64,000 nucleotides of DNA from Cephalotus follicularis (taxonomy: Eukaryota; Streptophyta; Magnoliopsida; Oxalidales; Cephalotaceae), in assembly GCA_001972305.1 (NCBI GenBank), contig BDDD01000124.1, forward strand, positions 545,486 to 609,485, written 5' to 3'. The notes beneath the pieces were generated by a model, which was not told the DNA's origin, did not search any database, and was given only the letters and a program-made list of their open reading frames with translations. Position numbers and translations under genes: made by a program. Of the stretch, positions 6,708-62,815 are shown piece by piece (positions within the stretch are counted from its first letter, which is position 1; every line of letters begins with the position of its first letter).

Positions 6708-6921
6708 CAGTCGGCTGCTTTCCATAACAGTCGGTTGTTCCCTTGAGTTAGTCGGCTATCTTCCTTGGCAGTCGACTAATCTGGTACGAGAATCAATAGT
6801 CGGCTGTCTTCCTTCGATGGTGCGCTGTTCTGAGCGGGCAACACATACACAGTCGACTGTTCTTCTTAATAGTCGGCTGTATACATTGAGAAATCGAATT
6901 TTGTAGCTCAACAGTCGGTTG
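6708..6921. promoter_or_regulatory. CAGTCGGCTG/CAGTCGACTG palindrome array, element B left LTR
   Basis: About eleven variants start near 6708, 6728, 6749, 6769, 6797, 6818, 6850, 6870, 6891 and 6912. Steps are 20, 21, 20, 28, 21, 32, 20, 21 and 21 bp, and the filler between copies is unrelated. The array lies upstream of a TATA-like stretch (about 6498-6515) when read in element orientation, that is, in U3. The right LTR keeps eight copies with the same spacing (19438-19609). Confidence 0.8.
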
Positions 6922-7122
6922 TTCTGCGAAAAACGGTAGCACTCAATTCATTCTATTTCGTCGAACATTCATATACAACCCATTCTACCATATTCATACA
7001 ATAGAATATCATAAATGATCACTTCACAGTCCAGATACATAACTAAATTCATGCATTTTCTCTGTTTTATGAAATATTAGTGGAAGCCAACATGGTATGC
7101 ATGCAATCAAGTCCATTTCCAT

Positions 7123-8391
7123 TATTGGCCTTTGCCACCCCGATTAAATGTTTACCATAAGTTATTTTGATGATTAACAAACGTAGATTACTTGTATGCA
7201 TAATTCTTTAAGTTATAAATGCATTTACTCACTTGATTCTTTGTCCAAAGTTATGCCAATAATGTTTATGCAGATACAGGCAATTCCAGCCGACTGGAGA
7301 GCAATCCAGTCTACTGCTAAGGCTAGGAGTCGACTTCCAAAGTTATGTAGTCGACTGCATCTTCAACCAAATCCCAGAATCTGCAGAAACAGCACACCAG
7401 TCGACTGACACAGGGGTCCAGTCGACTGCCAGGCAATTCTAGTCGACTGTCACAGGGCATCAGTCGACTGCCATGGGATACAAATCAGGCAGAAGCTTCT
7501 GTAACATTTCACACCCAATCCAGCCGACTGAAGTAGGGGACCAGTCGACTACCAGGGGGTCCAGTAGACTGCCACAGGGGTCCAGCCGACTGCCTTCAAT
7601 TGGGAAAAATCTGGCAGTAGGTTCTATAACTTCTAAATTAGCCTCAACAGCCGACTGAAGCAGGGCATCAGTCGACTGCCGAGCATACCAGTCGACTGCC
7701 TATAGAATCCAGCCGACTGCCCACTCCCAACGGCTATATTCAAATATACGCGCCATCAAACCAGCTGACTGCCGTCCAAATCCAGCCGACTGGATTTGTA
7801 TCAGACAGTTAAAAATAGATCCGTTGGAGGCTCAACTATAAGAGGAAATTTGGACATCTTGCACAAGTGATCAAGCTTTCAAGTTACACATTCTCTCAAG
7901 CTATCTCAAGAACAATACCAAGCATTCACACAATCAAAAGAGATCAATCCAAAGCAATTATTTACATTCACAAAGCTTTGTACTTTGCATTACATACACA
8001 CTTGTAGCTTTGTTTAGAGTTGTGCTTCATTGTAAACAAATTCGCTACGAATTTGTAAACACTTAAACTACTACTTTCACACATACAAGAGAGGTTGTCT
8101 CTTGTATTGCTCGGTTGGAGCAAAGTGTAATTCGCTTGGTTGGAGCGAAAGTTTGTTGGAGCTCGGTTGGAGTTCCAAGCCCGGATTGGGGCATACCTAG
8201 TGAATACTCAAGGGGAGGCCTTGGGGAGTGGACGTAGGCGGTTTACCGAACCACTATATATCCGTTTGCAATCTCTAAACCCTACACTCTTTACTTTCCG
8301 CATTGTGTGTTTGAATAATTAATTTTATGTGTGGTATATTTGCTAGATAAACTTTTATTAGTCTATTCACCCCCCCTCTAGACTTCCAACA
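7123..8391 (+). repeat. Element A 5' LTR
   Basis: 1269 bp, ending in CTTCCAACA directly before the primer site. It contains the 18-copy palindrome array (7287-7792), then a TATA-like CTATAAGAGG at about 7836-7845. The tail carries a GGACGTAGGCGG...CCGAACCACT segment and a C-run before the end, both typical of plant Copia LTRs of this kind. Confidence 0.93.
7287..7792. promoter_or_regulatory. 18-copy CAGTCGACTG array in quartets, element A 5' LTR
   Basis: Ten-bp palindrome variants start at 7287, 7307, 7327, 7348 | 7398, 7419, 7440, 7461 | 7521, 7542, 7562, 7583 | 7648, 7669, 7689, 7710 | 7762, 7783. Steps within groups are 20-21 bp, and gaps between groups are 50, 60, 65 and 52 bp. The 10-11-bp fillers differ from copy to copy, so this is not a simple tandem repeat. 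The array ends about 45 bp upstream of a TATA-like CTATAAGAGG. The 3' LTR repeats it from 12145. Confidence 0.9.
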
Positions 8392-8393
8392 AT

Positions 8394-8404
8394 TGGTATC
8401 AGAG
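8394..8404 (+). other. Primer-binding site, element A
   Basis: TGGTATCAGAG, complementary to the 3' end of initiator methionine tRNA, two bases after the 5' LTR. Confidence 0.9.
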
Positions 8405-8446: not shown

Positions 8447-9511
8447 ATGGCCTCTACTAGCATGAACAACCAATCTCGACACAATGACGACGTCTCCGAA
8501 TTTAAGGTCCCATTCTTTAGTGGTGACGATTTTCCTTATTGGAAAAGCCGTATGGAGATATACCTTAAGTCTAGAGACTTTAGGAATTGGGTTAGTGTTA
8601 AAAATGGCCCTCACACCCCTATGAAGCTCAATGACAAAAATGAACTCATTTCTAAACCGGAAGACGAATGGGATGAAGAGGACTTTAGAAAATTGACCAT
8701 AGATGACAAGGCCTTGAACATTCTACTTGTATCATTAGACAAGACCGAATACAATCTCGTTAGGAGATGTATTTCCGCACATGAGGTGTGGAAATTGCTC
8801 ATTCTTACCCACGAGGGTACCGAGCAAGTTAAGAATGCCAAACTTGCCTGGCTAAATAGAGATTATGAATTGTTTAAAATGCAACCAAACGAATCCATTA
8901 AGAATTTGTATAATCGGTTGTTTGATATTACTAATGGTTTGCTTGGTCTTGGCAAGGTATTTGGGCAGGACATACTTGTAAGTAAATTGATATGGTGTCT
9001 CAATGATGAGTGGGAACCCAAGGTGACGGCAATTGAAGAATCGAAGGACTTGAAGACAATGGAAATTGAAGAATTGCTTGGTTCCCTCATGACTCATGAG
9101 GTTAAGTTGAACAAGAAATCGGCGAAACTTGTGGAGACAAAACCACAAGAGGAGAAAAGAAAGGACATTGCCCTCAAGAGCACTCACAAGGAAGATATGT
9201 CAAGTGAAGATGAGCTAGAGGAAGAGGACTATGTTCTCTTTGCGAAACGATTCACAAAATTCGCAAAGATGAACAAAGCAAGAAGGTTCAAAAGAAAGAA
9301 CTTCAACAAGGGAGAAGGAAGCAAGATGGATCCTCCCACATGCTTCGAATGCAATAAGCCGGGGCACATCAAAGTTGATTGCCCACAATTGAAGAAAAAG
9401 AAGTTATTCAAGAAGAAAGCACTCAAGGCTTGGCACCTAAGTGATGACGAATCCTCCGAAGATGAAGTCACCGAGCAAGTAGCAAAACCTATGCTTTATG
9501 GCATTGAGTGA
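8447..9511 (+). CDS. Copia Gag (nucleocapsid/capsid) of element A
   Basis: A 354-residue open frame starting 43 bases after the primer site. Family knowledge: Copia Gag assembles cytoplasmic virus-like particles around element RNA. Residues about 19-42 hold the FxGDDFPYWKSRME start typical of plant Copia Gag. The middle resembles the UBN2 gag domain (KLLILTHEGTEQVKNAKL). Residues 299-312 form a zinc knuckle, CFECNKPGHIKVDC (C-x2-C-x4-H-x4-C), flanked by lysine-rich stretches. An acidic stretch (about 244-265) precedes the knuckle and another follows it. The ATG at 8447 is the first in frame after the primer site. The next coding pieces lie in other frames downstream. Confidence 0.88.
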   Translation: MASTSMNNQSRHNDDVSEFKVPFFSGDDFPYWKSRMEIYLKSRDFRNWVSVKNGPHTPMKLNDKNELISKPEDEWDEEDFRKLTIDDKALNILLVSLDKTEYNLVRRCISAHEVWKLLILTHEGTEQVKNAKLAWLNRDYELFKMQPNESIKNLYNRLFDITNGLLGLGKVFGQDILVSKLIWCLNDEWEPKVTAIEESKDLKTMEIEELLGSLMTHEVKLNKKSAKLVETKPQEEKRKDIALKSTHKEDMSSEDELEEEDYVLFAKRFTKFAKMNKARRFKRKNFNKGEGSKMDPPTCFECNKPGHIKVDCPQLKKKKLFKKKALKAWHLSDDESSEDEVTEQVAKPMLYGIE

Positions 9512-10661: not shown

Positions 10662-10692
10662 CAGCCGACTAGACAACTTGTCCAGTCGACTG
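10662..10692. promoter_or_regulatory. Palindrome pair upstream of the extra ORF, element A
   Basis: CAGCCGACTA at 10662 and CAGTCGACTG at 10683, 21 bp apart, lie between the RNase H tail and the extra ORF. Element I has two quartets in the equivalent place (62631-62815). Confidence 0.7.
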
Positions 10693-10831
10693 ATCGCTAC
10701 TTCTTGTTACCAACACTTTTCTACCAAAACAAGGATCACACACCCTCCCATCCGAGCGCGACCTTAAATTCGTCGCTTGTGTCAAGAATGGAACCCAAAT
10801 TAACCTTCCCTATCTTATTGTAAACCACTTA

Positions 10832-11344
10832 TTGTCTAGGCCAAATCACACTCCATATCCTATGCTTCTTAGTAGGATTATTTCGACTGTCCTAGCTTCT
10901 TTTAACATAGATATCCCTGATGATGAGCAAAGTGTTAAGCCTTCCCATAAGCATTTGGTGAATAAGGTGGGACTTAGACAATTAAACCTTACATTTGAGG
11001 AAGGAGAGTGGGTCAAGGTGAGAGGGAGAGGTAGAGAGCAAGCAAGAGAGCAAGAGCATGTTAGGGGTGATGATGATGAGGAGGAGGAGGACGACGATCC
11101 ACAGCAGTATGAGATGCGTCCGAGTACTGGTCCGAGTAGTAGCAGCAGCAGGCCTACTCTTGATTCACTGCTGGCCAGAATGGATATTTCCCAAGCTGAT
11201 ATGGAGTTTATCAAAGGTGAAATGCATCAGTTTTGTGAAGGCCAAGCAAACATTCTTCAAGGTCAGGCCGAACTTCGACAGGGACAAGCGTACATCCTTC
11301 AGTTGCTTCAAAACGCTTTCCCACATCACCCTCCACCATCTTGA
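10832..11344 (+). CDS. Extra 3' ORF of Copia element A, homologous to 61406-62515
   Basis: A 170-residue open frame downstream of pol, in the place where some SIRE-like elements carry an env-like ORF. It shares SRPNHxPYPMLLSRI and a K-x4-L-x-NK-x-GLR segment with the 369-residue ORF of element I. It then has an acidic run (EEEEDDD), a Ser-rich linker, a helical segment with GQAxxLQGQAELRQGQA repeats and a proline-rich end. No signal peptide or membrane segment is visible, so it is not an obvious envelope protein. It resembles proteins I recall being labelled putative plant transposon protein. Function is unknown. It is shorter than the copy in element I. Confidence 0.65.
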   Translation: MSRPNHTPYPMLLSRIISTVLASFNIDIPDDEQSVKPSHKHLVNKVGLRQLNLTFEEGEWVKVRGRGREQAREQEHVRGDDDEEEEDDDPQQYEMRPSTGPSSSSSRPTLDSLLARMDISQADMEFIKGEMHQFCEGQANILQGQAELRQGQAYILQLLQNAFPHHPPPS

Positions 11345-11966
11345 GCTGACATTTGCATCACATGTTTTTCCTTGTATTTTCAAACTTTGAATTTGTTATG
11401 GTTTTTAGTGTTTAACTTATGTGAAAAGACAATGTGGTTTATGTACTTGAAGTTTTTAAGTACTTTATGCTTTGATCTTATATTTTTGGATATGGTTTAT
11501 GAAATTGATGGATTATGTGTTGAATGCAAAAGCATTTCATATTATTGCTTTGATGTGTTTACTTCAAATGTTTAATAGAATTGTGCTTCTATCTTAATGG
11601 ATCTCTCTTATTGCATTGTTTTTATTGATAAAAGTGTATAGGAATGCATAAGTTGAGGGGGAGCTCTTCAATCCGTGCTATGATTGAGGGGAGCTTTCGT
11701 CTCTCTTTTTGTTGTTTGACAAAAAGGGGAGAGAGATATATTATTTTGCACATTGCATTGAAAGGTTGCATATGCATATACATTTGAGGAATATATATTT
11801 AATATATTGCATATTGATGAGATGGGTTAATATCTTGCATTGAGCAAGTATATCTTTGATATGACATGTGTCTTGGATATGCCTAATTGATAAATTTGGA
11901 CTTTGGAACTAAATTGAGTATAATTTGTCAAGATTTATGCAAAATATGCATGTTTTGTCAATCATC

Positions 11967-11980
11967 AAAAAGGGGGAGAT
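11967..11980 (+). other. Polypurine tract, element A
   Basis: AAAAAGGGGGAGAT directly before the 3' LTR, the plus-strand primer of reverse transcription. Confidence 0.9.
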
Positions 11981-13205
11981 TGTTGGCCTTTGCCACCCCG
12001 ATTAAATGTTTACCGTAAGTTATTTTGATGATTAACAAACGTAAATTACTTCTATGCATAATTCTTTAAGTTATAAATGCATTTACTCACTTGATTCTTT
12101 GTCCAAAGTTCTGCCAAGAATGTTTATGCAGATACAGGCAATTCCAGCCGACTGGAGAGCAATCCAGTCGACTGCCAAGGCTAGGAGTCGACTTCCAAAG
12201 TTATGTAGTCGACTGCATCTTCAACCAAAACCCAGAATCTGCAGAAACAGCACACCAGTCGACTGACACAGGGGTCCAATCGACTGCCAGGCAATTCCAG
12301 TCGACTGTCACAGGGCATCAGTCGAATGCCATGGGGTACAAAACAGGCAGAAGCTTCTGTAACATTTCACACCCAATCCAGCCGAATGAAGTAGGGGACC
12401 AGTCGACTGCCAGGGGGTCCAGTCGACTGCCACAGGGGTCCAGCCGACTGCCTTCAATTGTGCAAAATCTGGTAGTAGGTTCTATAACTTCTAAATTAGC
12501 CTCAACAGCCGACTGAAGCAGGGCATCAGTCGACTGCCGAGCATACCAGTCGACTGCCTATAGAATCCAGCCGACTGCCCACTCCCAACAGCTATATTCA
12601 AATATACGCGCCATCAAACCAGCTGACTGCCATCCAAATCCAGCCCACTGGATTTGTATCAGACAGTTAAAAATATATCCGTTGGAGGCTCAACTATAAG
12701 AGGAAATTTGGACATCTTGCATAAGTGATCAAGCTTTCAAGTTACACATTCTCTCAAGCTATCTCAAGAACAATACCAAGCATTCACACAATCAAAAGAG
12801 ATCAATCCAAAGCAGTTATTTACATTCACAAAGCTTTGTACTTTACATTACATACACACTTGTAGCTTTGTTTAGAGTTGTGCTTCATTGTAAACAAATT
12901 CGCTACGAATTTGTAAACACTTAAACTACTACTTTCACACATACAAGAGAGGTTGTCTCTTGTATTGCTCGGTTGGAGCAAAGTGTAATTCGCTTGGTTG
13001 GAGCGAAAGTTTGTTGGAACTCGATTGGAGTTCCAAGCCCGGATTGGGGCATACCTAGTGAATACTCAAGGGGAGGCCTTGGGGAGTGGACGTAGGCGGT
13101 TTGCCGAACCACTATATATCCGTTTGCATTCTCTAAACCCTACACTCTTTACTTTCCGCATTGTGTGTTTGAATAATTAATTTTATTGGTGGTATACTTC
13201 CAACA
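11981..13205 (+). repeat. Element A 3' LTR
   Basis: 1225 bp, TGTTGG to CCAACA, followed by TSD TCCAT. It carries the same palindrome array (starting 12145, 12165, 12185, 12206 and onward) as the 5' LTR. Several of the differences between the two LTRs fall within motif copies. Confidence 0.93.
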
Positions 13206-13853
13206 TCCATTCTAAAACTCAATGTACATATCATGTTAACAATTAGCCATAAACATGATACTTCACCCAACAATCCACAGTCCGTATTAACATGCAATCC
13301 ATTAATTAGAAACATTATTTTAGAACTCGATTTTGCATGCATAATTCCTTTACAATTTCCCCTGGCTTTGATTTCAAGTTAGAAATATGTAAGTCCACCT
13401 CTTTGTGTTCCAACAGTGAAGTTTTGAGCTCCCCAGAAGCTTCAACTCCAATCTAGTAGCTCCAACCCATCACCTCCAAACTCCTCTTGGTTCAACAATT
13501 TGGGAATCTCTCTCTCTTTCTCTCATGATTCCTCACTGTTCTTCTCTGTAACTTCTCATTGGTTTCTTTCCTTTTAGGTACTGGGCGAGAGAGGTGAAGA
13601 GGAGAGCGTTTTATGCAGGCAGTTCTCTCTCCCTCTTTTCTCTAACCCATTTCCATGGCTCTAAATGCCATCCCTCTCTCACATCTGCATGCACACACCC
13701 ACATGACTGATTGTCCCTGTCCCATGACCTGCATGGCATATAGGTATTCACTCTTCCCTTTGCATTGGCCTCATGACGCACATATGGCACACCTTTCTTC
13801 CTTATCAGTCGTTGCATGTGATCTTGTCACATGCAACAAAACAGAGCATAATC

Positions 13854-14002
13854 CAGCCGACTGTTCTTCCCCAACAGCCAGCTGTCTTCTTGGCCGTGGT
13901 TGCCAGTTGGCTCGACAGCTACCAGTTGGCTGGTTCGTCCAACCATTCGACTGTTCCGTTAAACAGTCCACCAGTCGGCTGGTCTATTGTACCAGTCGAC
14001 TG
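13854..14002. promoter_or_regulatory. Second palindrome cluster of element B left LTR
   Basis: Variants start near 13854, 13875, 13904, 13923, 13944, 13972 and 13993, with steps of 21, 29, 19, 21, 28 and 21 bp. The right LTR has the matching cluster at 20454-20602. Confidence 0.75.
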
Positions 14003-19437: not shown

Positions 19438-19609
19438 TAGTCGGCTATCTTCCTTGGCAGTCGACTAATCTGGCACGAGTATCAACAGTCAGCTATCTTC
19501 CTTCGACAGTTGGTTGTTCTAAGCGGGCAACACATACACAGTCGATTGTTCTTCTTAACAGTTGGCTGTATACTTTGAGCAGTGATTGTTGTACCACAAC
19601 AGTCGACTG
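19438..19609. promoter_or_regulatory. Palindrome array, element B right LTR
   Basis: Eight variants start at 19438, 19458, 19486, 19507, 19539, 19559, 19580 and 19600. Steps of 20, 28, 21, 32, 20, 21 and 20 bp mirror the left LTR. Confidence 0.8.
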
Positions 19610-20453
19610 TTCTGCAAAAAACAGTAGCACTCAATTCATTCTATTTCATCCAACATTCATATACAACCCATTCTACCATATTCATATAATAGAATATCAT
19701 AAATGATCACTTCAAAGTCCACAGACATAACTCAATTCATGTATTTTCTCTATTTTATCACAATATTAGTGGAAGACAACATCGTATGCATGCAACCAAG
19801 TCCATTTCCATTCTAAAACTCAATGTACAGATCATGTTAACAATTAGCCATAAACAAGATCCTTCACCCAATAATCCACAGTCCAAATTAACATGCAATC
19901 CATCAGTGAGCAACATTATTTTAGAACTCGAATTTACATGTATAATTCCTTTACAATTTCCCCCTACCTTTGATTTCAAGTTAGAAATCTGTAAGTCCAC
20001 CTCTTTGTGTTCCAACAGTGAAGTTTTCAGCTTCCCATAAGCTTCAACTCCAATCCAGCAGCTCCAACCCGTCACCTCCAAACACCTCTTGGTTCAACAA
20101 TTAGAGAATATCTCTCTCTCTTTCTCATGATTCCTCACTGTTTTTCTCTATAACTTCTGACTGGTTTCTTTCCTTTCAGGTACTGGGCGAGAGATGTGAA
20201 GAGGAGAGCATTTAATACAGGCAGTTCTCTCTCTCTTTTCTCCAACCCGTTTCCATGGCTCTAAATGCCATCCCTCTCTCACATTTGCATGCACACACCC
20301 ACATGACTAATTCTCCCTGTCCCGTAACCTGTGTGGCGTACATGTATTCACTCTTCCCTTTGAATTGCCCGCATGACGCATAGATGGCACACCATTCCTC
20401 CTTGTCAGTCGTTGCACATGATCTCGTCACATGCAACAAAACAGAGCATAATC

Positions 20454-20602
20454 TAATCGGTTGTTCTTCCCCAACAGTCGGCTGTCTTCTTGGTCTTGGT
20501 TGCCAGGTCACTCGACAGCTGCCAGTCGGCTGGTTCGTCCAAACAGTTGACTGTTCCATTAAACAATCCACCAGTCGGCTGGTCTATTGTACCAATCGAT
20601 TG
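20454..20602. promoter_or_regulatory. Second palindrome cluster, element B right LTR
   Basis: Runs from TAATCGGTTG at 20454 to CAATCGATTG at 20593, including CAGTCGGCTG copies. It is the counterpart of 13854-14002. Confidence 0.7.
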
Positions 20603-21780: not shown

Positions 21781-23030
21781 TTGTGCATAATCACGTGAAG
21801 GGTCCACAAAGGCAACCAAGAGGGGGGTGAATTGGTTATGCAGAAAATAACCACCCTTTTTAAAGATTAAAAACAATAATGATAAAAATGAACAAGTTAC
21901 TCTAAACATTAAATTAAATAACAAATAAAGTAAGGAGTAAGAGATAGAGAAATGCAAACGAGTTTATAGTGGTTCCGCAAACCGTGCCTACGTCCACTCT
22001 CCCAAGCCGTGCTTGAGGTTCCACTAGAATGTAATCCCCTGATCACTAACAATGATTCTGGATTTGTACAAGCTTATCCTAACTCAGATTTTTATGAGCT
22101 AAATCCTAACTCGGATTTTCAAAAGCTAAATCCTAACTTTGGGTAAGTAACTAATGATCTTGAGTATATAATGGATTTCTGAGTGTTTGTAATGTTTAAA
22201 AACCTCTCAAAAGGTTGGATAACAAAAACAATAATTGCTCAAAGGATCTCAAAAAAGAACTTTTTAAACTATAGCTCAAAATTATTCTTTCTTGCTCTTA
22301 TAAGACTTGGATATTGCTTGTGTGAGTAGTTGATTATTTCTTTACGGTTTGGGTCTCTATTTAAAGCTTTCAGATGAATGTAGCCATTGCTGGAGTTCAG
22401 GGAATCGTCAGATAGACGTTTGAATGATGTATGGAAAGTCTTCAGCATTTCAACACCTTCAAATTTTGCAAATTCTGTGTTTGGCTGTCATTGTCATTGA
22501 CGTGTACGAATGGCGTTAACGTCTATCCCCTTATGCATGGACTCCCGTGGATTTCTGCGTGGATACTCCAAGATTTTTTTCATCTTCAATTCTATTTACG
22601 TTGACGCGCATGCATGGTGTTGACGTATAGAGACAAGATGTTGACGTCTTAATGTCTTTGCGTTAACGTCTAAACTCACTGTCTGAAATGTGCACCATTT
22701 GCGTTGACGTCTTGATATGGAGTTAATGTCTATAGACAAGGTGTTGACTCCACTTGTTTTTTGCGTTAACGTCCAAACCACTATCACCTTTTGACGTCGA
22801 TGTCTTTACTCATGACGTTGACGTAAATCATAAGTTTCTCAGCACATTGATGCGAATAATGAATGGCTGTGATGAGAATCATCCTTTCAAGCCCAGAACA
22901 TGTACTTATTCCCAGCACGTTGACGCCTAAAGCATAGCCGTTGCTGCCAATAGTTCTGATTTGGAAGTTTAATCTTTCTTTCACTGCAAGTTCACTTTGT
23001 TAGAGATTCCTCCACATCACACACACAGAT
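21781..23030 (-). mobile_element. LTR L: Copia-type LTR, minus orientation
   Basis: The stretch AAGAGGGGGGTGAATTGGTT near 21820 and CCTACGTCCACTCTCCCAAG near 21990 are reverse complements of features at the 3' end of Copia LTRs (compare element A at 8229-8380 and element I at 60840-60960). In element sense, TATA-like sequences lie near 22305 and 22355 (TTATAAGAG, TTTAAATAGAG). A GTTGACGTC array lies upstream of them at 22497-22821. No primer site or internal region was found, so it may be a solo LTR. Ends and TSD are uncertain. Confidence 0.6.
22497..22821. promoter_or_regulatory. GCGTTGACGTC array in quartets, LTR L
   Basis: Cores (TTGA, TTAA or TCGA) lie at 22497, 22516 | 22601, 22620, 22641, 22663 | 22704, 22723, 22744, 22766 | 22797, 22818. 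Steps within groups are 19-22 bp. Gaps between groups are 85, 41 and 31 bp, and a further core lies at 22921. This is a third dialect of the palindrome grammar, in a different LTR family. Confidence 0.8.
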
Positions 23031-28781: not shown

Positions 28782-28989
28782 CAGTTGGTTGTTCTTATGA
28801 TCAGTCGACTGGTTTGGTTGTACATTCAGCTGTCCTATGAATGCAGTCGACTGTTTTGTGTTGAGTAGTCGAATGGACCCTTGTCACAGTTGACTGCTTG
28901 TAGTCCAGTTTGTGTAGTTGACTGGCCCTGTTGCATAGTCGGCTGCAAAGCTTCCAACAAATCGACTGGAGCTCTGTAACAGTTAGCTG
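28782..28989. promoter_or_regulatory. Palindrome array, element C 5' LTR
   Basis: Variants start at 28782, 28802, 28823, 28844, 28866, 28887 | 28915, 28936, 28959, 28980. Steps are 20-23 bp with a single 28-bp gap. The consensus is CAGTYGACTG. The right LTR has a shorter counterpart at about 35711-35850. Confidence 0.8.
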
Positions 28990-35018: not shown

Positions 35019-37293
35019 CAATTCTCTCTTTTATTTCCCGTTTTAAGACTGCCTATGTCATTGTTATATGTTATTCTCACATTGCAAGCCACTACCAAAT
35101 CTGCCATTGTGGAATCGTTGTGTTCTTCCATTAGTTCCGTTCATCAAAAGTCAGGTTTGTTTTATGTAATCTGTCTTTTGTTTTTCTTTTGGTTATTTTT
35201 CCCTTGGCAGGCATTGAGCTGTGTAATCGTTTTCACCTCTTTGGATTTCTGTTCACAGCCGATTAACATTGTTTTATGGTGTTTCTTCCTGCTGTTTTAG
35301 TGTCTGTTAAATCATTGCAGATTAGTAATTCTTGTTGTGATGGTTTGTTTCACTTGTTATTCGGTTCACATGCATATAGGTTATTAGTGTCCTTGTGGAT
35401 TTGATTCCGGTAATTGTGTTCTGACATGGTTTATCACACTGTCACCATGTTTTAGACAGCATGGACATGTTGTAATATGGTTTTAATATCTGTAAATGGT
35501 AATGGACAGAAGAATTGGACTGATATATGTATGCATGTGTTTAGGATTTTTATTCTCTTTTCCTTGAGTTAGCCATTGGCCTCATAAGTTATGTCAATTC
35601 TATGTTTTTCCTACTGTCTAAACATCATATAATGTCTTATGTATATGTTCACAGGTCTCTAATAACGAGTCATTAAAAAGGGCTATGTTTTTGCTGTTCT
35701 ATCGACCAGAACAGTCAGCTGTTCTTATGATCAGTCGACTGGTTTGGTTGAACTGTCGGCTGTCTTGTGAATGAAGTCGACTGTTTTGTGTTGAGTAGTC
35801 GGCTGGACCCCTGTCACAGTCGACTGAGTTTTGTAACTGTCAGCTGTTTTGCTCAGAAAATTCCTGTTTTCAACTATTTTGATTCGTTTGTTCTTCAAAT
35901 TGATCCGGGTCTTTTCTAAACATAGTAATGAATCAGTTTTATGTTTCTAATGTTTCTAAGACCCTTATATGCTTAGTTTTGTGTCTTTTAGATTGTTGTG
36001 CTTCAAGGGAGTTTGACTTAACAATCTTTCGTAAGTCTTTTCTAAGCGCATAAGGTACGGATATTCTGCTCTTTGGCCATCTCGTTTCATGAACGAAAAT
36101 CAGTTTTACTCTTATGATATGTTCTTTCGGATTTATGACTTGGTTATGCTTTATAGTTTTAATATGTTTTGAAAATAAAGTTGGTTTTGACGTTTTGTGA
36201 AATTAAATGCTTCTGACTTTATTCTTATGCTGTGATACGTTATGATATGTTATGATCATCTAGTTTATTGTGAGAAATAAATAGGTTGATGCTTTGTTTA
36301 TGGAAAGTGTGCAATGATATCGTTTATTAACGATTTTACAATATGTTTCGAAAAAGCATATTTTACGTGTTATTAAATTGATTTTGATAAATCAATGTTT
36401 TCGAAATGATAAAGTACTGAGTATTTGTACCCACCTATGGGGTGTATCGTAGGCATGTCGTAGCCCTGGCACGGGGACATGACACTTTCGTAGCGGTGTG
36501 ATTAGACTACGGCGTCTCTCTGTGTTATGAATAAATCCCATTAGGTGGATTTATGGATCCGTTATGTATGATAGAGGCATATGAATCGATTCTAGTTACG
36601 TGTGGAGTTATGCAATATGTGATATGATGTGAAATGATAATTGACTTGTGTAGTGCCGTACACTGCAATTCTAGTTGCCATGTGGAATTAGCGCCTCTCT
36701 TGCCATCTATATGTTGTGGATACATGATACGTTATGTGGCTCAGTATGCATTTGTGTTTATGAAATTTTTGTTTCGTATACGTTTCCCAGGTTATGGCTT
36801 TAATTGTAAGAATGTTATAACTGTTACTACTTAAGATTTCTGTTATGAGTTTTATTGAAATCTTACTGTTTTTAGGTTATCGTTATTGTTTTACATTCTT
36901 TATTCGTACTGAGGTTTGCTCAGCCGCGTTTTTGTTTCCATGCAGCAGGTTATCAGGAGCAACGGGGAAAATTGTGATTTGAGAGATGACCACCATATGT
37001 CCAGGATCCTCTAGAAGTGTGATCCCTTTAGGTTTTCTGTTAAGATTTGCTATGAACAATAAGTTACTTTTGGTTCATGTTTTCTGAATTTTACTTTGGA
37101 ACATGTTTAGGTTTTGCCGAATATGTTAAGTTTTAAGTTTATGATCAGTTTTCAGATATGCTATGTCATGACTGTCACGTTTTTAGCGAATGAAGTTATG
37201 CTTATGTTCAGTATAATATGTTAAGTTAAGATATGTTGTGCTTAAGTTCTGTTAAGTTATGACCCGTGACGTCTCCCGCCGTCCGGGGGTGTT
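35019..37293 (+). repeat. Element C 3' LTR (shorter copy)
   Basis: Matches the 5' LTR from about 28070 onward (for example ACTGCCTATGTCATTG at 35048), including a reduced palindrome array at 35711-35850 and the region before the LTR end. Its final ACA lies after nested element D at 55470-55472. Confidence 0.88.
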
Positions 37294-38997: not shown

Positions 38998-39754
38998 TGT
39001 CTTTACAACCCAGAATGTCCTTTTCCATAGTTCTAACATACCAAGCCATCATCAAATCCATCCTTTACACAATCAACCCACGTATTCATGTAATCGTACA
39101 TGCATGATTAACTCAGTGTATCACAGTAACACCATAACAAGTCCAGAATCACAATTAACATGCAATTCATCATGTTATTCATTAACTTAAAAACCATAAA
39201 TGCATGTATAAATCCATCACTTTCCCCTACCTTATTGTTCCAAGTTAGGAACTGGAAAGTCCACCTCTTTGAGTTCCCAAATTCTGGCCACCAGCAGCTC
39301 CAAGGTTCCCTCAGCAACTGCAACCAACGAGCTCCAATCTCTAGCTCCAAGCAAACTCAACAATGGTGGCTCACACTCCCACTATTTTCTTTCCTCTCTT
39401 TCTTCTGGTGTTTTAAAACGAGAGAGAGAAGTGGGGAGGGATATTCTTATGCAGATGGTTCCCCCCCAACATTCTTCTCTTTACATTTAATAGGCCACCC
39501 TCATGCCCTCTCCCACTTTCTAGGTCTCTGCATTTTCTTTTGTTTTCTATTCTTCTTTCTTTTGCAGGTTGCATGTTAGGATGTATATCCCTTGCATGTT
39601 CCATGTGAGGAGCATGTTTTAGCATTCCTGGCAACACACCGACATGATCCACACGTCATAATGCACTTGTACAGGCATCAGGTAAAGCCCCCAAAGATCC
39701 CCTTGCATGTTACTCTGCCAGCGAAAAAGCGCGACAGACGTTCATATAAAGGCG

Positions 39755-39896
39755 TCGACGTCTTTCCTTAGACGTCGATGTCTTTTCTCCTTTTGTAAGA
39801 AGGTGTCGATGCCTTCTCGAAATGTCGACGTGCATGCCCATGCATTCACGTGTACCTCGGCTCTAATAGGCGTCGACGTATTTCAAAAGACGTCGA
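39755..39896. promoter_or_regulatory. GACGTCGACGTC pairs, element D left LTR, second cluster
   Basis: TCGA cores at 39755, 39775 | 39806, 39825 | 39873, 39893. Steps are 20, 31, 19, 48 and 20 bp. Counterpart in the right LTR at about 55146-55290. Confidence 0.85.
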
Positions 39897-40119
39897 TGTC
39901 CTTACCCCAAAACAATGCCGTTTCAAGCTTTGACATACACATTCCATTTCCAAAACCATAATTAGGGTTTGTAAGCATCTCTTGAGTTTGAAACTTCAAC
40001 ATTCACATTAAGTCGAGTTTAAGATTACATCATAAATCGAAATATTACATTCAGGAAAATACTGGGCGTTACATCCACCCCTCCTTCAAGAAATTTTAGT
40101 CCTCGAAATTTACACAATA

Positions 40120-45096: not shown

Positions 45097-45405
45097 CAAT
45101 CGGTTGTCCCTCACTGACAGTCGGTTGTTTTCCTTCAACAGTCGGCTGTCCTAAACTGGCAGTCGGCTGCCCACACTCGACAGTCGGCTGTCATCCTTGA
45201 CAGTCGGCTGTTTATACCCAACAGTCGGCCGTTGGCCTACAGCAGTCGGCTACTCAAGCCTCTGCAGGCATTTCTCAGTAACACACATGGAAAGTCGACT
45301 GGCTCCCAAGCACAGTCGGTTGGATCCATTGAGTAGTCGGTTGTTCATACCGAATAGTCGACTGGCGCACTCGAGCAGTCGGCTGTCCTCTTGGACAGTC
45401 GGCTG
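45097..45405. promoter_or_regulatory. 14-copy CAGTCGGCTG array, element E left LTR
   Basis: Copies start at 45097, 45118, 45139, 45160, 45181, 45201, 45222, 45243 | 45292, 45313, 45334, 45355, 45376, 45396. All steps are 20-21 bp except one gap of 49 bp, and fillers are unrelated. The right LTR repeats it at about 50800-51109. Confidence 0.9.
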
Positions 45406-45489
45406 GATTCTGCAGACAATGCAGAAAAATAGCAGCAAAACAAGCCACAACTCACAACGATCCACTCTAACACACAACGAATCATAGCG

Positions 45490-45584
45490 TCGACGTTATC
45501 TCTAAGCGTCGACGTTTATCGCAAATCAAGACTCATTGTCCGTATAACAATTTATAGCGTCGACGCTTCTTTCCTAAGCGTCGA
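45490..45584. promoter_or_regulatory. AGCGTCGACGCT pairs, element E left LTR
   Basis: TCGA cores at 45490, 45509 | 45560, 45581. Pair steps are 19 and 21 bp with a 51-bp gap. The second palindrome dialect occurs here in the same LTR as the first. The right counterpart is at about 51185-51285. Confidence 0.85.
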
Positions 45585-47015
45585 CGGTTAAACGAACCAA
45601 AACATGGTTCCTTCAACATGCCTCAAAACCGATCGAGTTCAAGGCATACAACATATGCAATCCCATCTATAATCATCGTAAAACACGATATGCATAGCAG
45701 GTTAACTATTCATAGCAACCCTAACACAGTCACACAATTCACAATTCACAATCCACAACCCACAATCATTCAAAGACACGATATGCACGCATTTCATCAT
45801 GGAACATTTATTATAATTGAACTCAAACCACATATGTAAAATCCCCTACCTGTTACAGCAGTAACAACCGTACAGTCGAGCTGCACGTTCAATTGCCGAA
45901 CCTTTTCGATAAACGCTGAACCAAAGCCGATTCTCGCCAATTGATTAGTTCCTCAACGCCAAAACCAATTGCCACTCGCACACTGTAGATACAACACATT
46001 TCCGTTATGTTCGACACACAAAACATTTCCGTCGCCGAAACGCCGGCCGGATTCTGACCGACACAACCAGGCGACGAAACACCCATCAACGGATTCCACA
46101 TTGAACGGTCGACTCAAAACCAGTCAAGACTCATCGGGAATCGGCGCCGAACGCCGTGCCACGGCCGGCAGTGAGTCGTGACTCACTGAGTCGACTCGCC
46201 GGACCTCCACAGGTCCGATCACCACCCAAAAACACCACACATTCACCGGTTATACCCATCCATGCCCGTGACTCGCCAAGACTCAGCGCCGAACGCCGTG
46301 TCTCAGGCGGCCGTGAGTCGACTCGCTGAGTCGACTCGGTCCACTGGTTCTGGCCGATTCTGGCCGAATCACGTCTCACCGGTGGTGGAAATGGGTAGAG
46401 CGGACCTCCTACACCATAACCCACCCCACCCGCGATGCTAACGGCGCCGGGAAAAGGCACGAACAGTGGCGGCAATGAGAAGAAAAAGAAGAAAAAGAGA
46501 AGGAGGGGGAGGAGGTTACCGTTGATTGGAGGCCCTGGGTTGACCGGCGTGCTCTCCCGGTTCGGTAGCTGGCTCCGGCGTCCTCTCCCGTTCTCCCTGC
46601 CGATCTCTCTCCCACTCTCTCTCGCCATCTCTCCCTGCAGGCGCACAGAGCGCCTGCTGTTCTCTTCATGCACGGGCGCGTGATGCGCCCGTGTGTGTGT
46701 CTTTCCCCCTTTATTCTTTTGTTAATTTTGCTTCCCCCTTAGTATTTTCTGGTAAAATACTAAGGTCTGGGTCCCGATTTTTTCGCAAAACGCGACATAA
46801 ATTTTCCAAACGACCACCAAAATAATCGTAATAAAAACGCGAACATTCAGGCTTTATTGTCACGCGTTAAAAATATATTTTATTAGCCGTCTTAGCTAAC
46901 ACAATTACGACTTAAATGCGTAATGCCTTTTTATTACTCCGGGCTCTATCGATTTTATTACGATCGTACACGCACCAATTTCATAATAATTATTTATGAA
47001 ATTCGGGGTGTTACA

Positions 47016-49984: not shown

Positions 49985-52711
49985 ATGTATTTGCATATGT
50001 ATCTCGATCAATAGTTACGCAACCATGCCAAGTGGCTACATAAACATAATCCATCAGTCATGTCACTAAGGACCAATCAATTCAATCAGTATTCGATAAC
50101 CACCACCCGTAGGTTAGTATTATCTCACGTCGATGGTAACCGGCCCATAGGCGGAGGAAAGCTCAATCAATAATTGACACTAACCGGCACGTAGCGGAGG
50201 AAAGTTCAACAAACAAATGAGTCTAACCGGCACAAGGCGGAGGACAGCTCATAGTGTGGATGTCAACCGGCACGTAGCGGAGGAAGACCATCCGGTGTGG
50301 TGTCCCTAGCCATCTCCTGGCCCATAGAGCACAACCTGCTATTAGCGTAAGTGACAACCTCCGTCACCGCACTAAAAGCGTAACAATCACAAACAGCAAT
50401 CACAGTCAAGCTCAATCACAATCACAGTCATCTCGATGCTCAAAACAGTTTCCCAAGTAATTTATAAGACAAAATACTTGGAAACAAACTCATGTTCACG
50501 ATGTCACGGTTCTCGATTCACGATGTTACAAAACCCAGTTCACGATGTTTGGAAGCCATTTTCACAGTCCTTTGAAAATATATATTTGCTTGAAACATAC
50601 ATTTTCGTGTAAAATAATGATTTATAATGATCATGAATGCACTTCCAAAAGAATGATACAACAGTTCACGATTAGTTATAACGATGCACAATCAGTTCAC
50701 CACAGTTCACAATCAACACTACTCAATCACAATTCACAATTCATCACAGTACAAAATGCATACACATGCCCACAATGCAAGACAGACACAAACAATCGGT
50801 TGTCCCTCACTGACAGTCGGTTGTTTTCCTTCAACAGTCGGCTATCCTAAACTGGCAGTCGGCTGCCCACACTCGACAGTCGGCTGTCATCCTTGACAGT
50901 CGGCTGTTTATACCAAACAGTCGGCCGTTGGCCTACAGCAGTCAGCTGCCCAAGCCTCTGCAGGAATTTCTTAGTAATACACATGGAAAGTCGACTGGCT
51001 CCCAAGCACAATCGGTTGGATCCATTGAGTAGTCGGTTGTTCATACCGAATAGTCGACTGGCACACTCGAGCAGTCGGCTGTCCTCTTGGACAGTCGGCT
51101 GGATTCTGCAGACAGTGCAGAAAAACAACAGCAAAACAAGCCACAACTCACAACGATCCACTCTAACACACAACGAATCATAGCGTTGACGTTATCTCTA
51201 AGCGTCGACGTTTATCGCAAATCAGGACTCATTGTCCGTATAACAATTTATAGCGTTGACGCTTCTTTCCTAAGCGTCGACGGTTAAACGAACCAAAACA
51301 TGGTTCCTTCAACATGTCTCAAAACCGATCGAGTTCAAGGCATACAACATATGCAATCCGATCTATAATCATCGTAAAACACGATATGCATAGTGGGTTA
51401 ACTATTCATAGCAACCCTAACACAGTCACACAATTCACAATTCACAATTCACAGCCCACAATTATTCAAAGACACGATATGCACGCATTTCATCATGGAA
51501 CATTTATTATAATTGAACTCAAACCACATTTATAAAATCCCCTACCTGTTACAGCAGTAACAACCGTACACTCGAGCTGCACGTTCAATTGCCGAACCTT
51601 TTCGATAAACGCTGAACCGAAGCCGATTCTCGCCAATTGATCAGTTCCTCAATGCCAAAACCAATTGCCACTCGCCCACTGCACACACCATACATTTTTG
51701 TTATGTTTGACACAAAAAACATTTCCGTCGCCGAAACGCCGGCCGGATTTCGACCGACCCAACCAGGCGACGAAACACCCATCAACGGATTCCACATTGG
51801 ACGGTCGACTCAAAACCGGTCAAGACTCATCGGGAATCGGCGCTGAACGCCGCGCCACGGCTCGCAGTGAGTCGCGACTCACTGAGTCGACTCGCCGGAC
51901 CTCCACAGGTCCGATCACCACCCAAAAATGCCACACATTCACCGGTTATACCCATCCATGCCCGTGACTCACCAAGACTCGGCGCCGAACAACTTGTCTC
52001 AGGCGGTCGTGAGTCGACTCGCTGAGTCAACTCGGTCCACTGGTTTCGGCCGAATCACGCCTCACCGGTGGTGGAAATGGGTAGAGCGGACCTCCAACAC
52101 CATAACCCACCCCACCCGCGACGCTAACGGCGTCGGGAAATGCCGGGAAAAGGCGCGAACAGTGGCGGCAAGGAGAAGCAAAAAAAGAAAAAGAGAAGGA
52201 GGGGGAGGAGGTTACCGTCGATTGGAGGCCCTGGGTTGACCGGCGTGCTCTCCCGGTCCGGTAGCTGGCTTCGGCGTCCTCTCCCGTTCTCCCTGCCGAT
52301 CTCTCTCCCACTCTCTCTCGCCATCTTTCCCTGCAGGCGCACAGACCGCCTGCTGTTCTCTTCATGCACGGGCGCATGATGCGCCCGTGTGTGTGTCTTT
52401 CCCCCTTTATTCTTTTGTTATTTTTGCTTCCCCCTTAGTATTTTCTGGTGAAATACTAAGGTCTGGGTCCCGATTTTTTCGCAAAACGCTACATAAATTT
52501 TCCAAACGACCACCAAAATAATCGTAATAAAAATGCGAACATTCGGGCTTTATTGTCGCGCGTTAAAAATAGATTTTATTAGCCGTCTTAGCTAACACAA
52601 TTACGACTTAAATGCGTAATGCCTTTTTATTACTCCGGGCTCTATCGATTTTATAACGAAAGTACACGCACCAATTTCATAATAATTATTTATGAAATTC
52701 GAGGCGTTACA
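49499..52711 (-). repeat. Element E 5' LTR (right copy)
   Basis: Same internal order as the left copy, including hairpin (49641-49668), repeat block (50110-50290), palindrome array (about 50800-51109) and GCGTCGACG pairs (about 51185-51285). It has an AT microsatellite at 49954-49981 that is longer than in the left copy. Confidence 0.92.
49954..49981. repeat. (AT)n microsatellite in element E right LTR
   Basis: About 14 AT dinucleotides; the left LTR has a much shorter run at the same place. Confidence 0.9.
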
Positions 52712-53262: not shown

Positions 53263-55464
53263 TGTCACGCCCCCGTTTTCCAAAACATAGACAACATATA
53301 AGGTAGTAAGGCAATCAACATAAGATAATCCAACTCGTGCAAAATTCCAATCAATAAAAACCTTAGATGGCGGAAGCAACATCATAAATGAGCCGAATTA
53401 AAAACACGCATCACGCATCCCATACTACGTGATGCCCAACAGGTTTATAAAATAAACCCAACATAACTGTCGATCGCCCAAAACGGAGCGTGAAATAATA
53501 ATACAGTACGAGATAACAAAATAACCTTTGTTACAAAATCCGAATAACATGATCAAAGTTCAATAACCCAAATACATAAATAAGAGAAATAACCGAGTCT
53601 TCTCTTTAAATCTTCACGCATGGCGGCTAATAATCAACAAGCACAAGCATTTCACAGTACAAGTCAAGCAATTACATATAATTACTTGATCAAATATATT
53701 TGTTTAAAATACATTATTCCGTTCACAAGTTGTAATAAGTTACAAAACTTAAAACAATACATTTCTCGTCCTTGGAAATACTTCCCCAATCATTTTGAAA
53801 AAATATATATTCATATGTTGACAAATATACATTTTCGCCCAATACATTTGGTTTCATAACAAAACCTTTAAAACATTTCTCTGTCATTGGAAATACTTCC
53901 CCAAACATTTCGAAACTATATAAATTCATATGTTGACAAATATACATTTTCGCGCAAATGATCATAATAATCATGCAAGCTTTTCAAAATGGTTAACACT
54001 TTTAGAAAGCAACCATAATGCAAATCACAGTAACAATGCAAACATATGCTCATAATGCATCTAGGTTCGTTTCTAGAGTCGTTCGGGTCTAGCGGGTGCC
54101 ATTTGAGTAAAATTCTACTGATCAGGGGGAAAGGCGTCGATGTCTATCCTTAAGGCGTCGACGTCTTTACACTAAGGCATTGATCCCATGCACAAATATT
54201 CGCTGATGTAACGAATCCAGCCTTTTAATCCCTCATCTAAACAGGTGATCCCAAGTGGCTAAATGGCCATCTGAAATGAACATCACAGTTCTACAATTTC
54301 CCAGAAAAGGCGTCGATGTCAATACAAAGACATCGATGTCTTTCACATATTCACACGAAGGCATCGACGTCTTTACATAGACGTCGATGTCTTTACAACC
54401 CAGAACGTCCTTTTCCATAGTTCTAACATACCAAGCCATCATCAAATCCATCCTTTACACAATCAACCCACGTATTCATGTAATCGTACATGCATGATTA
54501 ACTCAGTGTATCATAGTAACACCATAACAAGTCTAGAATCACAATTAACATGCAATTCATCATGTTATTCATTAACTTAAAAACCCAAAATGCATGTATA
54601 AATCCATCACTTTCCCCTACCTTATTGTTCCAAGTTAGGAACTGGAAAGTCCACCTCTTTGAGTTCCCAAATTCTGGCCACCAGCAGCTCCAAGGTTCCC
54701 TCAGCAACTGCAACCCACGATCTCCAATCTCTAGCTCCAAGCAAACTCAACAATGGTGGCTCACACTCCCACTATTTTCTTTCCTCTCTTTCTTCTAGTG
54801 TTTTAAAACGAGGGAGAGAAGTGGGGAGGGATATTCTTATGCAGATGGTTCCCCCCCCAACATTCTTCTCTTTACATTTAATAGGCCACCCTCGTGCCCT
54901 CTCCCACTTTCCAGGTCTCTGCATTTTCTTTTGTTTTCTATTCTTCTTTCTTTTGCAGGTTGCATGTTAGGATGTATATCCCTTGCATGTTCCATGTGAG
55001 GAGAATGTTTTAGCATTCCTGGCAACACACCGACATGATCCACACGTCATAATGCACTTGTAAAGGCATCAGGTAAAGCCCCCAAAGATCCCCTTGCATG
55101 TTACTCTGCCAGCGAAAAAGCGCGACAGACGTTCATATAAAGGCGTCGACGTCTTTCCTTAGACGTCGATGTCTTTTCTCTTTTTGTAAGAAGGTGTCGA
55201 TGCCTTCTCGAAATGTCAACGTGCATGCCCATGCATTCACGTGTACCTCGGCTCTAATAGGCGTCGACGTCTTTCAAAAGAAGTCGATGTCTTTACCCCA
55301 AAACAATGTCGTTTCAAGCTTTGACATACACATTCCATTTCCAAAACCATAATTAGGGCTTGTAAGCATATCTTGAATTTGAAACTTCAACATTCACATT
55401 AACTCGAGTTTAAGATTACATCATAAATCGAAATATTACATTCAGGAAAATACCGGGCGTTACA
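53263..55464 (-). repeat. Element D 5' LTR (right copy)
   Basis: 2202 bp, shorter than the left copy mainly through less hairpin-repeat sequence. It contains the hairpin at 53408-53435 and both palindrome clusters (about 54137-54385 and 55146-55290). Confidence 0.92.
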
Positions 55465-61405: not shown

Positions 61406-62515
61406 TCATGAAGATCCGGGAGGTGGTGGTTGAGGGTAGGCGTTTTGGAGCATTTGAATCACTTGGGCCATTTGCGCGTCTTGCGAGTCTAAGCGATCAT
61501 AAATTTGATCCACCCTTCCTTGAATGTATTCCATTTTTGCTTGAAGAGACTCCATGGTTGTCCGACTACTACCACTCCCACTTCCACTCCCCCTTCCACT
61601 TGGCCTTACTTCAAATCTATCAAAGTCATCATCTTCTTCCTCTTCTCCAACATCTCCACCAAAATCTACATCTGGTGCCCTCACCGGTGCTCTTCCCACA
61701 ACTTGTATATTTACCCATTGATCATCCTCAAACTTGATATTACAACTTCTTAAACCGGCTTTATTGATCAATTGTTTGGATTTTGGTTTGACATTGTGTT
61801 CATCACTTAGGTCAATGTCAAGAGTAGCTAAAATTCTACTAAGGAGCATGGGGTATGGGAGGTGATTAGGTCTTGACAAGATATGGTTGACAATAAGATA
61901 TAGAAGATTGACAAGGGTTCCATTCTTAATGCAAGCTATAAATTTTAGGTCTCGCTCGGATGGAAGTGTATGCGAGCCTTCCTTTGGAAACAAAGTGTTT
62001 GTAACTAGCAAAAAGAGAATACGGGTAGCTATGGGCAAATGGCTACTCGTGACGGTCATAATAGGATTGACATTAGGCCGTTCTAAGCAAATTTCTAATG
62101 CATCAAATCTTACGATATCATTGAAGTTTGTGATACAGGTGCAAGGAATGCCTAGGGTTTCTCCTATGAATTCAGGGGTTATATTGACAGCAACACCAAG
62201 AACAAAAGATTTGGCAACACAAGTGGAGGGTTTTTCTAGGTTAGCATAAAAGAGTTTCACAATTCTAGGGTATATGGGGTGTGATGAACACAAATAATCA
62301 AACCATCCCATTTGTTCAAGCCATGGTTTAATAGCAGCAATATTACAAGTTAAAACAGCCCTATCTAACCACTTCTCATTGTGTAATTTGACAGAAATTA
62401 GAGAGAAGTTATACTTATCCTCATTTTCCTTTGAGAGGAACAAGTCATCATCATAATCCTTCCTTGCACTTGAGCTTGCTTGCTTTGCTGTAGTTTTCCT
62501 CTTCCTTGAAGCCAT
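61406..62515 (-). CDS. Extra ORF of Copia element I (369 aa, function unknown)
   Basis: An uninterrupted frame of 369 residues with good start context (CATCAATGGC). The N-terminus is basic (MASRKRKTTAKQ), and a globular middle (about 45-245) contains WLEQMGWFDYL, KLFYANLEKP and SRPNHLPYPMLLSRI. An acidic run (EEEEDDD, about 290), a Gly/Ser linker, a helical segment (about 320-350) and a proline-rich end follow. It is homologous to 10832-11344 in element A and resembles proteins I recall labelled putative plant transposon protein. There is no signal peptide or membrane segment. It has its own upstream TATA-like sequence (62605-62613) and palindrome quartets. Inference: a separately expressed accessory protein, possibly regulatory or a DNA/RNA-binding partner of Gag. 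Confidence 0.75.
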   Translation of the reverse strand: MASRKRKTTAKQASSSARKDYDDDLFLSKENEDKYNFSLISVKLHNEKWLDRAVLTCNIAAIKPWLEQMGWFDYLCSSHPIYPRIVKLFYANLEKPSTCVAKSFVLGVAVNITPEFIGETLGIPCTCITNFNDIVRFDALEICLERPNVNPIMTVTSSHLPIATRILFLLVTNTLFPKEGSHTLPSERDLKFIACIKNGTLVNLLYLIVNHILSRPNHLPYPMLLSRILATLDIDLSDEHNVKPKSKQLINKAGLRSCNIKFEDDQWVNIQVVGRAPVRAPDVDFGGDVGEEEEDDDFDRFEVRPSGRGSGSGSGSSRTTMESLQAKMEYIQGRVDQIYDRLDSQDAQMAQVIQMLQNAYPQPPPPGSS

Positions 62516-62630: not shown

Positions 62631-62815
62631 CAGTCGACGGGTGTCATTGGACAGTCGACTGGATCACAGGCAGTCGACTGGACCAGGACACCAATCAACT
62701 GGAATCTGCAGAAAAGAGAAAATGGCAGATTCAACTTGAAAGACTTCGATGTCTTATGAAAGGGGTCGACTTCTTTTGTAACAACAGTCGACTGGACCAA
62801 GACACCAGTCGACTG
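62631..62815. promoter_or_regulatory. Two palindrome quartets upstream of the extra ORF, element I
   Basis: Copies start at 62631, 62652, 62671, 62692 | 62743, 62763, 62785, 62806. Steps are 21, 19, 21, then 51, then 20, 22, 21 bp. The second quartet mixes dialects: ACTTCGATGT-like, GGGTCGACTT-like and two CAGTCGACTG. Confidence 0.85.

Follow-up and report, generated by a model that had tools for sequence, protein, structure and literature searches.

Long terminal repeats (LTRs) of both Ty1/copia- and gypsy-type retrotransposons in Cephalotus follicularis carry arrays of one near-palindromic motif, CAGYCGACTG, at a pitch of about two helical turns, and, judging from their sequence, these arrays are probably docking sites for a DNA-binding protein by which both kinds of retrotransposon would be switched on. 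The stretch analysed, referred to below as the window, comprises 64,000 nucleotides (C124:545486-609485) within a 1.58-Gb assembly. With about 189,000 phased motif pairs in both LTR superfamilies, what reads the arrays becomes accessible to a simple biochemical test, and the question arises whether unrelated retrotransposons have converged on one host factor or are trading control modules.

Nested LTR retrotransposons are stacked across the window. One of them, element A, sits within an LTR of the gypsy element B, flanked by a 5-bp target duplication whose site is uninterrupted in the other LTR of B, near 19807-19811 (Table 1). Its LTRs are 97.2% identical, most of pol is absent, and its gag best matches other Cephalotus follicularis proteins (86% over 88% of the length, with shorter stretches up to 95%). 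The LTR end CCAACA is followed by ATTGGTATCAGAGA, which shares 8 of 9 bases with the Sirevirus PBS TATCAGAGC. A repeated PPT, a PBS after the LTR end CA, a polyC-rich integrase-signal feature and a mid-LTR TATA are described as Sirevirus marks (PMC2829016); judged by such marks (gag, PPTs, PBS, polyC and TATA), element A is a Sirevirus-like Ty1/copia element.

Table 1. Features of the window, with positions counted from its first base
Feature	Position	Strand	Remarks
Target-site duplication TCCAT, element A	7118..7122	+	second copy 13206-13210; read from sequence
Element A 5' LTR, TATTGG...CCAACA	7123..8391	+	nested in gypsy B LTR; LTR pair, ends read
18 CAGYCGACTG near-palindromes, U3 of element A	7287..7792	+	20-21-bp pitch
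TATA-like box CTATAAGAGG, mid-LTR	7836..7845	+	44 bp past last motif
PolyC-rich integrase-signal-like tract	8368..8375	+	close to LTR 3' end
PBS-like TGGTATCAGAG	8394..8404	+	follows 5' LTR
Copia-type gag ORF, element A	8447..9511	+	PF14223, E 4.7e-26; zinc knuckle (zf-CCHC)
Two motif copies, element A	10662..10692	+	21 bp apart; directly upstream of env-like remnant
Env-like remnant, element A	10703..10879	+	76.8% identity to 62008-61832; frames read, stops left in
Sirevirus-type PPT AGGGGGAG, extra copy, element A	11656..11663	+	
Terminal PPT AGGGGGAG, element A	11971..11978	+	precedes 3' LTR
Element A 3' LTR	11981..13205	+	about 44 bp missing near end; LTR pair, ends read
Corresponding 18-site array, element A 3' LTR	12145..12650	+	
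Array, gypsy element B LTR	6708..6921	-	copy 19438-19609
Second array of B	20475..20602	-	152-279 bp into LTR; copy 13854-14002
Array, gypsy element D LTR	28782..28989	-	antisense to element; copy 35712-35846; LTR 5' edge undefined
Sister motif GRCRTCGAYGYC, gypsy element F LTR	39752..39901	.	20/31/19/48/20-bp steps; similar set 55143-55291
14-site array, element C LTR	45097..45405	-	0/14 exact palindromes; copy 50793-51101
Element E env-like ORF	61406..62515	-	PF20167 (putative plant transposon protein)
Six motif copies, element E	62631..62815	-	upstream of env-like ORF

The array of element A, spanning LTR positions 165-670, is built as the earlier note had described it: 18 sites at 20-21-bp steps in groups of 4, 4, 4, 4 and 2, separated by gaps of 50, 60, 65 and 52 bp, directly upstream of the TATA-like box. 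The sites had also been called palindromes; near-palindromes they are, with position P4 being T or C and P7 being A throughout, and exact palindromes are just 5 of the 18. At up to 2 mismatches, the window contains 122 motif matches against 18.1 expected (sd 3.6), a number reached in 0 of 100 shuffles. When all 1024 palindromic 10-mers are compared (up to 1 mismatch), CAGTCGACTG comes out on top with 32 pairs at 20-21 bp, and the runner-up, with 8, is its relative CAGCCGGCTG. For six arrays in five families, 61 sites were picked by eye from matches with up to 3 mismatches, using one LTR copy per family and leaving out matches that were out of register or isolated (e.g. 28769, 20509, 45174, 62645 and 62763); 41 of their 55 consecutive spacings are 20-22 bp, and 13 of the 61 are exact palindromes.

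That the array is exclusive to element A, an idea also considered, is ruled out by the gypsy-type arrays of B, C and D and by the env-linked copies. Gypsy pol ORFs lie between the LTRs of B and D; in C, no ORF of 200 aa was found between the LTRs, and its class as gypsy-type is by LTR-end similarity to B and F. In the gypsy element F, a chromodomain match (PF00385, E 1.7e-4, 21.8 bits) stays below the cut-off of 25.1, the D integrase ORF has no PF00385 match, and B aligns to the F region at 78%; by similarity, the gypsy carriers look chromovirus-like. TATA-like boxes follow the gypsy arrays as well, which is weak evidence given AT-rich DNA. Motif copies further occur upstream of the env-like ORF or its remnant in A (2), E (6) and L061 (4), the last being a relative of A from elsewhere in the genome that has LTR arrays and its four additional copies directly upstream of the ORF. 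The env-like ORF of E has its best matches among Cephalotus follicularis proteins (85% full-length, up to 94% over 82%), to which, by name, the best 120 of its 296 PF20167 homologues all belong.

The arrays run sense in A, B and C and antisense in D (28782-28989), and C4-bearing sites in the D-like LTRs of two sampled stretches (L047, 9342-9527; L059, 2712-2876) point the same antisense way as D. A block, TCTG[CT]AGA[AT]TC, stands directly before arrays twice in E and twice in C, once in either LTR of the latter, and in antisense it is seen twice in A, again once per LTR. Together with orientation-specific filler similarity (smallest p 0.002 in 30 comparisons, uncorrected for multiple tests), this common block is a hint that copia and gypsy arrays have been exchanged.

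Beyond the window, the spacing rule holds on the scale of the genome. A genome-wide spacing scan, which the earlier note had put forward as its check, comes out in its favour: the pattern CAGYCGRCTG-N5..35-CAGYCGRCTG yields 188,936 pairs, as compared to 542 for a control pattern read backwards. The 100 pairs among the matches listed, all from contig C1, are spaced by 19-22 bp (79), 27-28 bp (7) or 40-42 bp (14), with nothing elsewhere in the permitted range of 15-45 bp. In a sample of 20 stretches of 10 kb from large contigs, picked by contig number, 69 sites (up to 1 mismatch) were found, and of the 59 spacings between neighbouring ones 41 measure 20-22 bp; here too, CAGTCGACTG ranks first of the 1024 palindromes, with 29 pairs at 20-21 bp and the next having 4. 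Four additional 10-kb stretches contain no site, such that at least three sites are present in 6 of 24: L061; L053 and L055, in which gypsy pol has arrays downstream of it, at the place expected for the 3' LTR; L047 and L059, which match the D-type LTR; and L057, of unassigned element type. In the sampled stretches and the C1 pairs (the latter covering 15-45 bp only), the distances peak at 20-22, 28, 41-43 and 48-50 bp, which agrees in part with the forecast of about 21, 31, 42 and 52 bp; at 31 bp there is none. In scans of viral contigs, the motif gave 2 chance-like matches and no related locus, and a literal search of the literature returned, among the matches listed, papers that are unrelated by title.

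Within the window, motif variation is asymmetric: all 51 sites of A, B, C and E have A at P7, as do all 61 if D is flipped, a flip chosen post hoc. The notion of a strictly directional site is, however, weakened by 98 sites on contig C1, in which the two motif halves vary roughly as independence predicts and CAGCCGGCTG is seen 3 times against 4.3 expected; these sites represent 64 of the 100 rows listed, and among the 36 rows left out are every pair at 40-42 bp (14) and 5 of the 7 pairs at 27-28 bp. The reader of the motif may be a dimer on the near-dyad, as the earlier note expected, or a monomer on one side. Co-varying symmetric flanks were considered for the 67 GTCGAC sites of the window and are not significant: among the 35 sites that do not belong to the CA/TG class, 6 have symmetric flanks, against a permutation mean of 3.5 (p 0.11). 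An RYCGAC core is present in 47 of the 61 window sites (D read in reverse), and is retained in just 3 of the 10 D sites.

What, then, might read these arrays? On balance, the best reading is that of a U3 cis-regulatory (enhancer) array bound by a putative DNA-binding factor. Repeated many times at two-turn intervals upstream of the LTR TATA-like box, the motif would serve as a protein-binding site at which a host sequence-specific DNA-binding protein binds cooperatively and drives LTR transcription, while the sites ahead of the env-like ORF, as a second set, may give rise to an internal transcript, as has been suggested for similarly placed repeats of Sireviruses (PMC2829016). The arrays would expand and contract by 21-bp units and larger blocks, selection on mobile copies would preserve motif and pitch, and gypsy elements of the same genome may have come by the module either through exchange or because they converged on one and the same factor. 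The phasing has its bounds: all groups had been proposed to lie on one helical face, but the group gaps are out of step with a turn of 10.5 bp: the 12 spacings outside 19-23 bp in the six arrays give R 0.48 (p~0.06) at a mean phase of 0.77 turn. Spacings of 28 bp, or 2.67 turns, recur and count against a helical-phase enhancer.

Among named candidates for such a reader, an AP2/ERF factor of the CBF/DREB-like kind comes first, albeit one put forward with low confidence. The RYCGAC core resembles the barley CBF element, (G/a)(C/t)CGAC (PMC3602543), and the CRT/DRE core of CBF/DREB factors corresponds to the motif centre; as described, however, the CRT/DRE comes without the outer CA...TG, the near-dyad symmetry and the dense phased arrays (PMC3602543, PMC4196112). 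The CBF core covers 6 of the 10 conserved bases and leaves the outer CA...TG unexplained, and sites lacking RYCGAC, namely CAGCCGGCTG at 3 of the 98 C1 sites, speak against it.

The direct precedent for the arrays, not mentioned by the earlier note, is the RM boxes, palindromic high-copy repeated motifs of Sirevirus LTRs, which were proposed in 2010 as Sirevirus regulators, with no factor named in the text consulted (Bousios et al., 2010; PMC2829016). Like these, the sites described here are upper-LTR palindromes upstream of a TATA, with divergent flanks and with copies upstream of an env-like ORF (PMC2829016). RM boxes are described as at least eight near-palindromic upper-LTR copies starting at 200-400 bp, where element A has 18 starting from LTR base 165, and as having extra copies upstream of the env-like ORF, which is found in A (as a remnant), E and L061. 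The Vitis RM, CGGTCGACCG, even has the GTCGAC centre in common with our motif (PMC2829016). In contrast, CAGYCGACTG is devoid of the CGG-CCG signature, as is 1 of the 13 published RMs (Tnd-1), and a CpG island is absent over most of the element A array, with CpG o/e being 0.39-0.54 and GC 0.46-0.55 in 200-bp windows starting at 7221-7521, and o/e 0.92 at 7621. Moreover, RM boxes were restricted to Sireviruses in the 2010 comparison, a Ty1/copia set, whereas the arrays described here extend to gypsy-type LTRs (B, C and D) and lie beside gypsy pol in L053 and L055. Palindromic Sirevirus LTR motifs are thus known, and what goes beyond them is the pitch rule, the sharing between copia and gypsy, and a sister motif (see below); pitch rule and gypsy sharing were found neither in the excerpted text of PMC2829016 nor in the open-licence literature searched. 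The maize Sirevirus palindrome, CACCGGACNNNGTCCGGTG, differs from CAGYCGACTG; it is likewise shared across kinds of element, being reported also from Helitrons, another class of transposable elements (TEs) (PMC5311732, PMC10760457). Heat-responsive elements, with far fewer copies per LTR, are a further comparison. In ONSEN and other Brassicaceae COPIA LTRs they are likewise LTR sites for a host factor, with the difference that the motif is another and the factor is known (PMC5059998).

Could the palindromes act at the level of RNA instead? As parts of U3, which lies close to the 3' terminus of the genomic RNA, they would fold into hairpins that are diced to small RNAs, by way of host recognition, or serve RNA packaging, with a DNA site being secondary. 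Indeed, none of 100 shuffles folds as well as the A array (z -4.1), for the C array (z -2.5) 1 of 100 shuffles is as good, and the palindromes of maize Sireviruses, the LTR clusters of which are placed in the cis-region, are described as small-RNA hotspots (PMC5311732, PMC10760457). However, these are short motifs that in many cases deviate from a perfect palindrome (exact ones number 13 of 61), the C array, which has no exact palindrome among its 14 sites, folds only weakly, and hairpins need no constant 20-22-bp pitch; targeting by siRNA would, if anything, select against the motif. On this evidence we consider an RNA module unlikely.

The F LTRs, which have no CAGTCGACTG within 2 mismatches, were considered as array-negative, but this was ruled out since they bear the sister motif GRCRTCGAYGYC. 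This motif has the same TCGA core and a similar pitch as CAGYCGACTG, and forms 61,675 pairs genome-wide against 210 for its control; the 78 plus-strand pairs among the matches listed fall at 19-22 bp (52), at 40-45 bp (24) and elsewhere (2). In the C LTR, GCGTCGACGT-type sites with 19- and 21-bp steps (45487-45587, 51183-51283) adjoin the CAGYCGACTG array, such that a single LTR has both motif types. The same LTR also has clusters of GAGTCGACTC, the third palindrome with a TCGA centre (46106-46346 and 51802-52042), at irregular spacing (82, 127 and 13 bp in the first copy), and ACGTTGACGY-like sites cluster at 22598-22917, in a stretch without element assignment. One could imagine an array code, in which copia and gypsy elements depend on and exchange phased TCGA-centred arrays that are read by one small trans-acting family; its specificities would number two or more, CAG-YCGA-CTG and GRC-RTCGAY-GYC having replaced one another within gypsy LTRs at equal pitch, the reader maybe being a TE-encoded anti-silencing protein; we regard this as improbable.

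Returning to the enhancer array, a more mundane origin of its regularity has to be weighed, namely that of a minisatellite, in which slippage of a 21-bp unit spreads the arrays and the motif seems conserved owing to duplication or conversion in the recent past, not to function. The fillers between the sites had been called unrelated, which does not hold: in element A their mean identity is 0.37 against 0.26 for shuffled ones (p<=0.001), compared to 0.86 for the motif, and the array therefore began at least partly as a tandem duplication. Filler similarity, although not significant in B, persists at p 0.001-0.04 in the other four families (A, C, D and E), TRF finds tandem repeats of 20-21 bp at 7389-7470 and 7535-7594, and one exact 21-bp unit of A is missing in L061. 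Gap 2 is homologous to gap 3 in element A (score 18, 1000-shuffle maximum 14), whereas the remaining 9 of the 10 gap pairs compared score no higher than their shuffles do (best p 0.012). A higher-order duplication of about 125 bp thus accounts for some of the quartet pattern, which weakens the view of quartets as a design.

This weak filler similarity counts against the enhancer array, in that it would accommodate a minisatellite with a motif conserved on some other ground. Against a minisatellite, between A and its independent family member L061, compared position by position, 8 of 170 motif bases differ (4.7%), as opposed to 74 of 313 in the fillers (23.6%; p 2e-8) and 86 of 761 in the rest of the LTR; the motif is retained and the fillers diverge, as the earlier note had claimed, although weak filler similarity remains. 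D and L047 differ in the same direction, albeit not significantly (motif 17/96, filler 30/106, p 0.10). Moreover, motif and pitch are common to unrelated superfamilies, and in a rough simulation, for which indel rates had to be assumed, 14-51% of spacings end up 2-6 bp away from 21, and at least 23% from one substitution per filler site upwards, against 3 observed among 86 single-step C1 pairs, with 6 more being 7 bp off. We thus hold slippage on its own to be quite unlikely. Between LTRs of one insertion, the motif changes faster than the remainder (42/506 vs 385/7109, p 0.009; five comparisons of four LTR pairs, with the clearest excess in D), which gives no support for constraint on resident copies; as motifs are not spared there, constraint, if any, is on the mobile lineage. 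Such decay after insertion is expected if selection acts on moving copies while dead ones drift.

Least of all do we favour an anti-silencing target, quite improbable in our view, in which a TE-encoded VANC-like protein would bind the arrays and lift silencing, with the two motif types representing two specificities. In its favour, the gypsy LTRs of the window contain both motif types, which have their core in common and a similar pitch, and an ORF lies directly downstream of the env-linked motifs. However, this env-like ORF yielded no match to a DNA-binding domain, PF20167 alone passing its cut-off and two weak matches staying below theirs; its AlphaFold model is poor (pLDDT 47, above 75 for a C-terminal long helix alone); and on incidental inspection of the gypsy elements no comparable ORF was noticed. 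VANC, moreover, belongs to VANDAL elements, which are DNA transposons. Its targets in Arabidopsis are likewise often tandem repeats and variable between related TEs (PMC5735166), but that system has a TE-encoded protein, while here the host elements are LTR retrotransposons and the env-like ORF was not identified as a binding protein; the link to VANC is an analogy.

Finally, spaced copies of the motif also occur far from plants. A scan of prokaryote genomes yielded 35 stretches with two exact CAGTCGACTG copies, and in 24 of these, e.g. in Sporosarcina and Myxococcales, by a hand count that keeps related records in, the copies are 20-24 or 40-44 bp apart (15-45 allowed); perhaps they are operator pairs.
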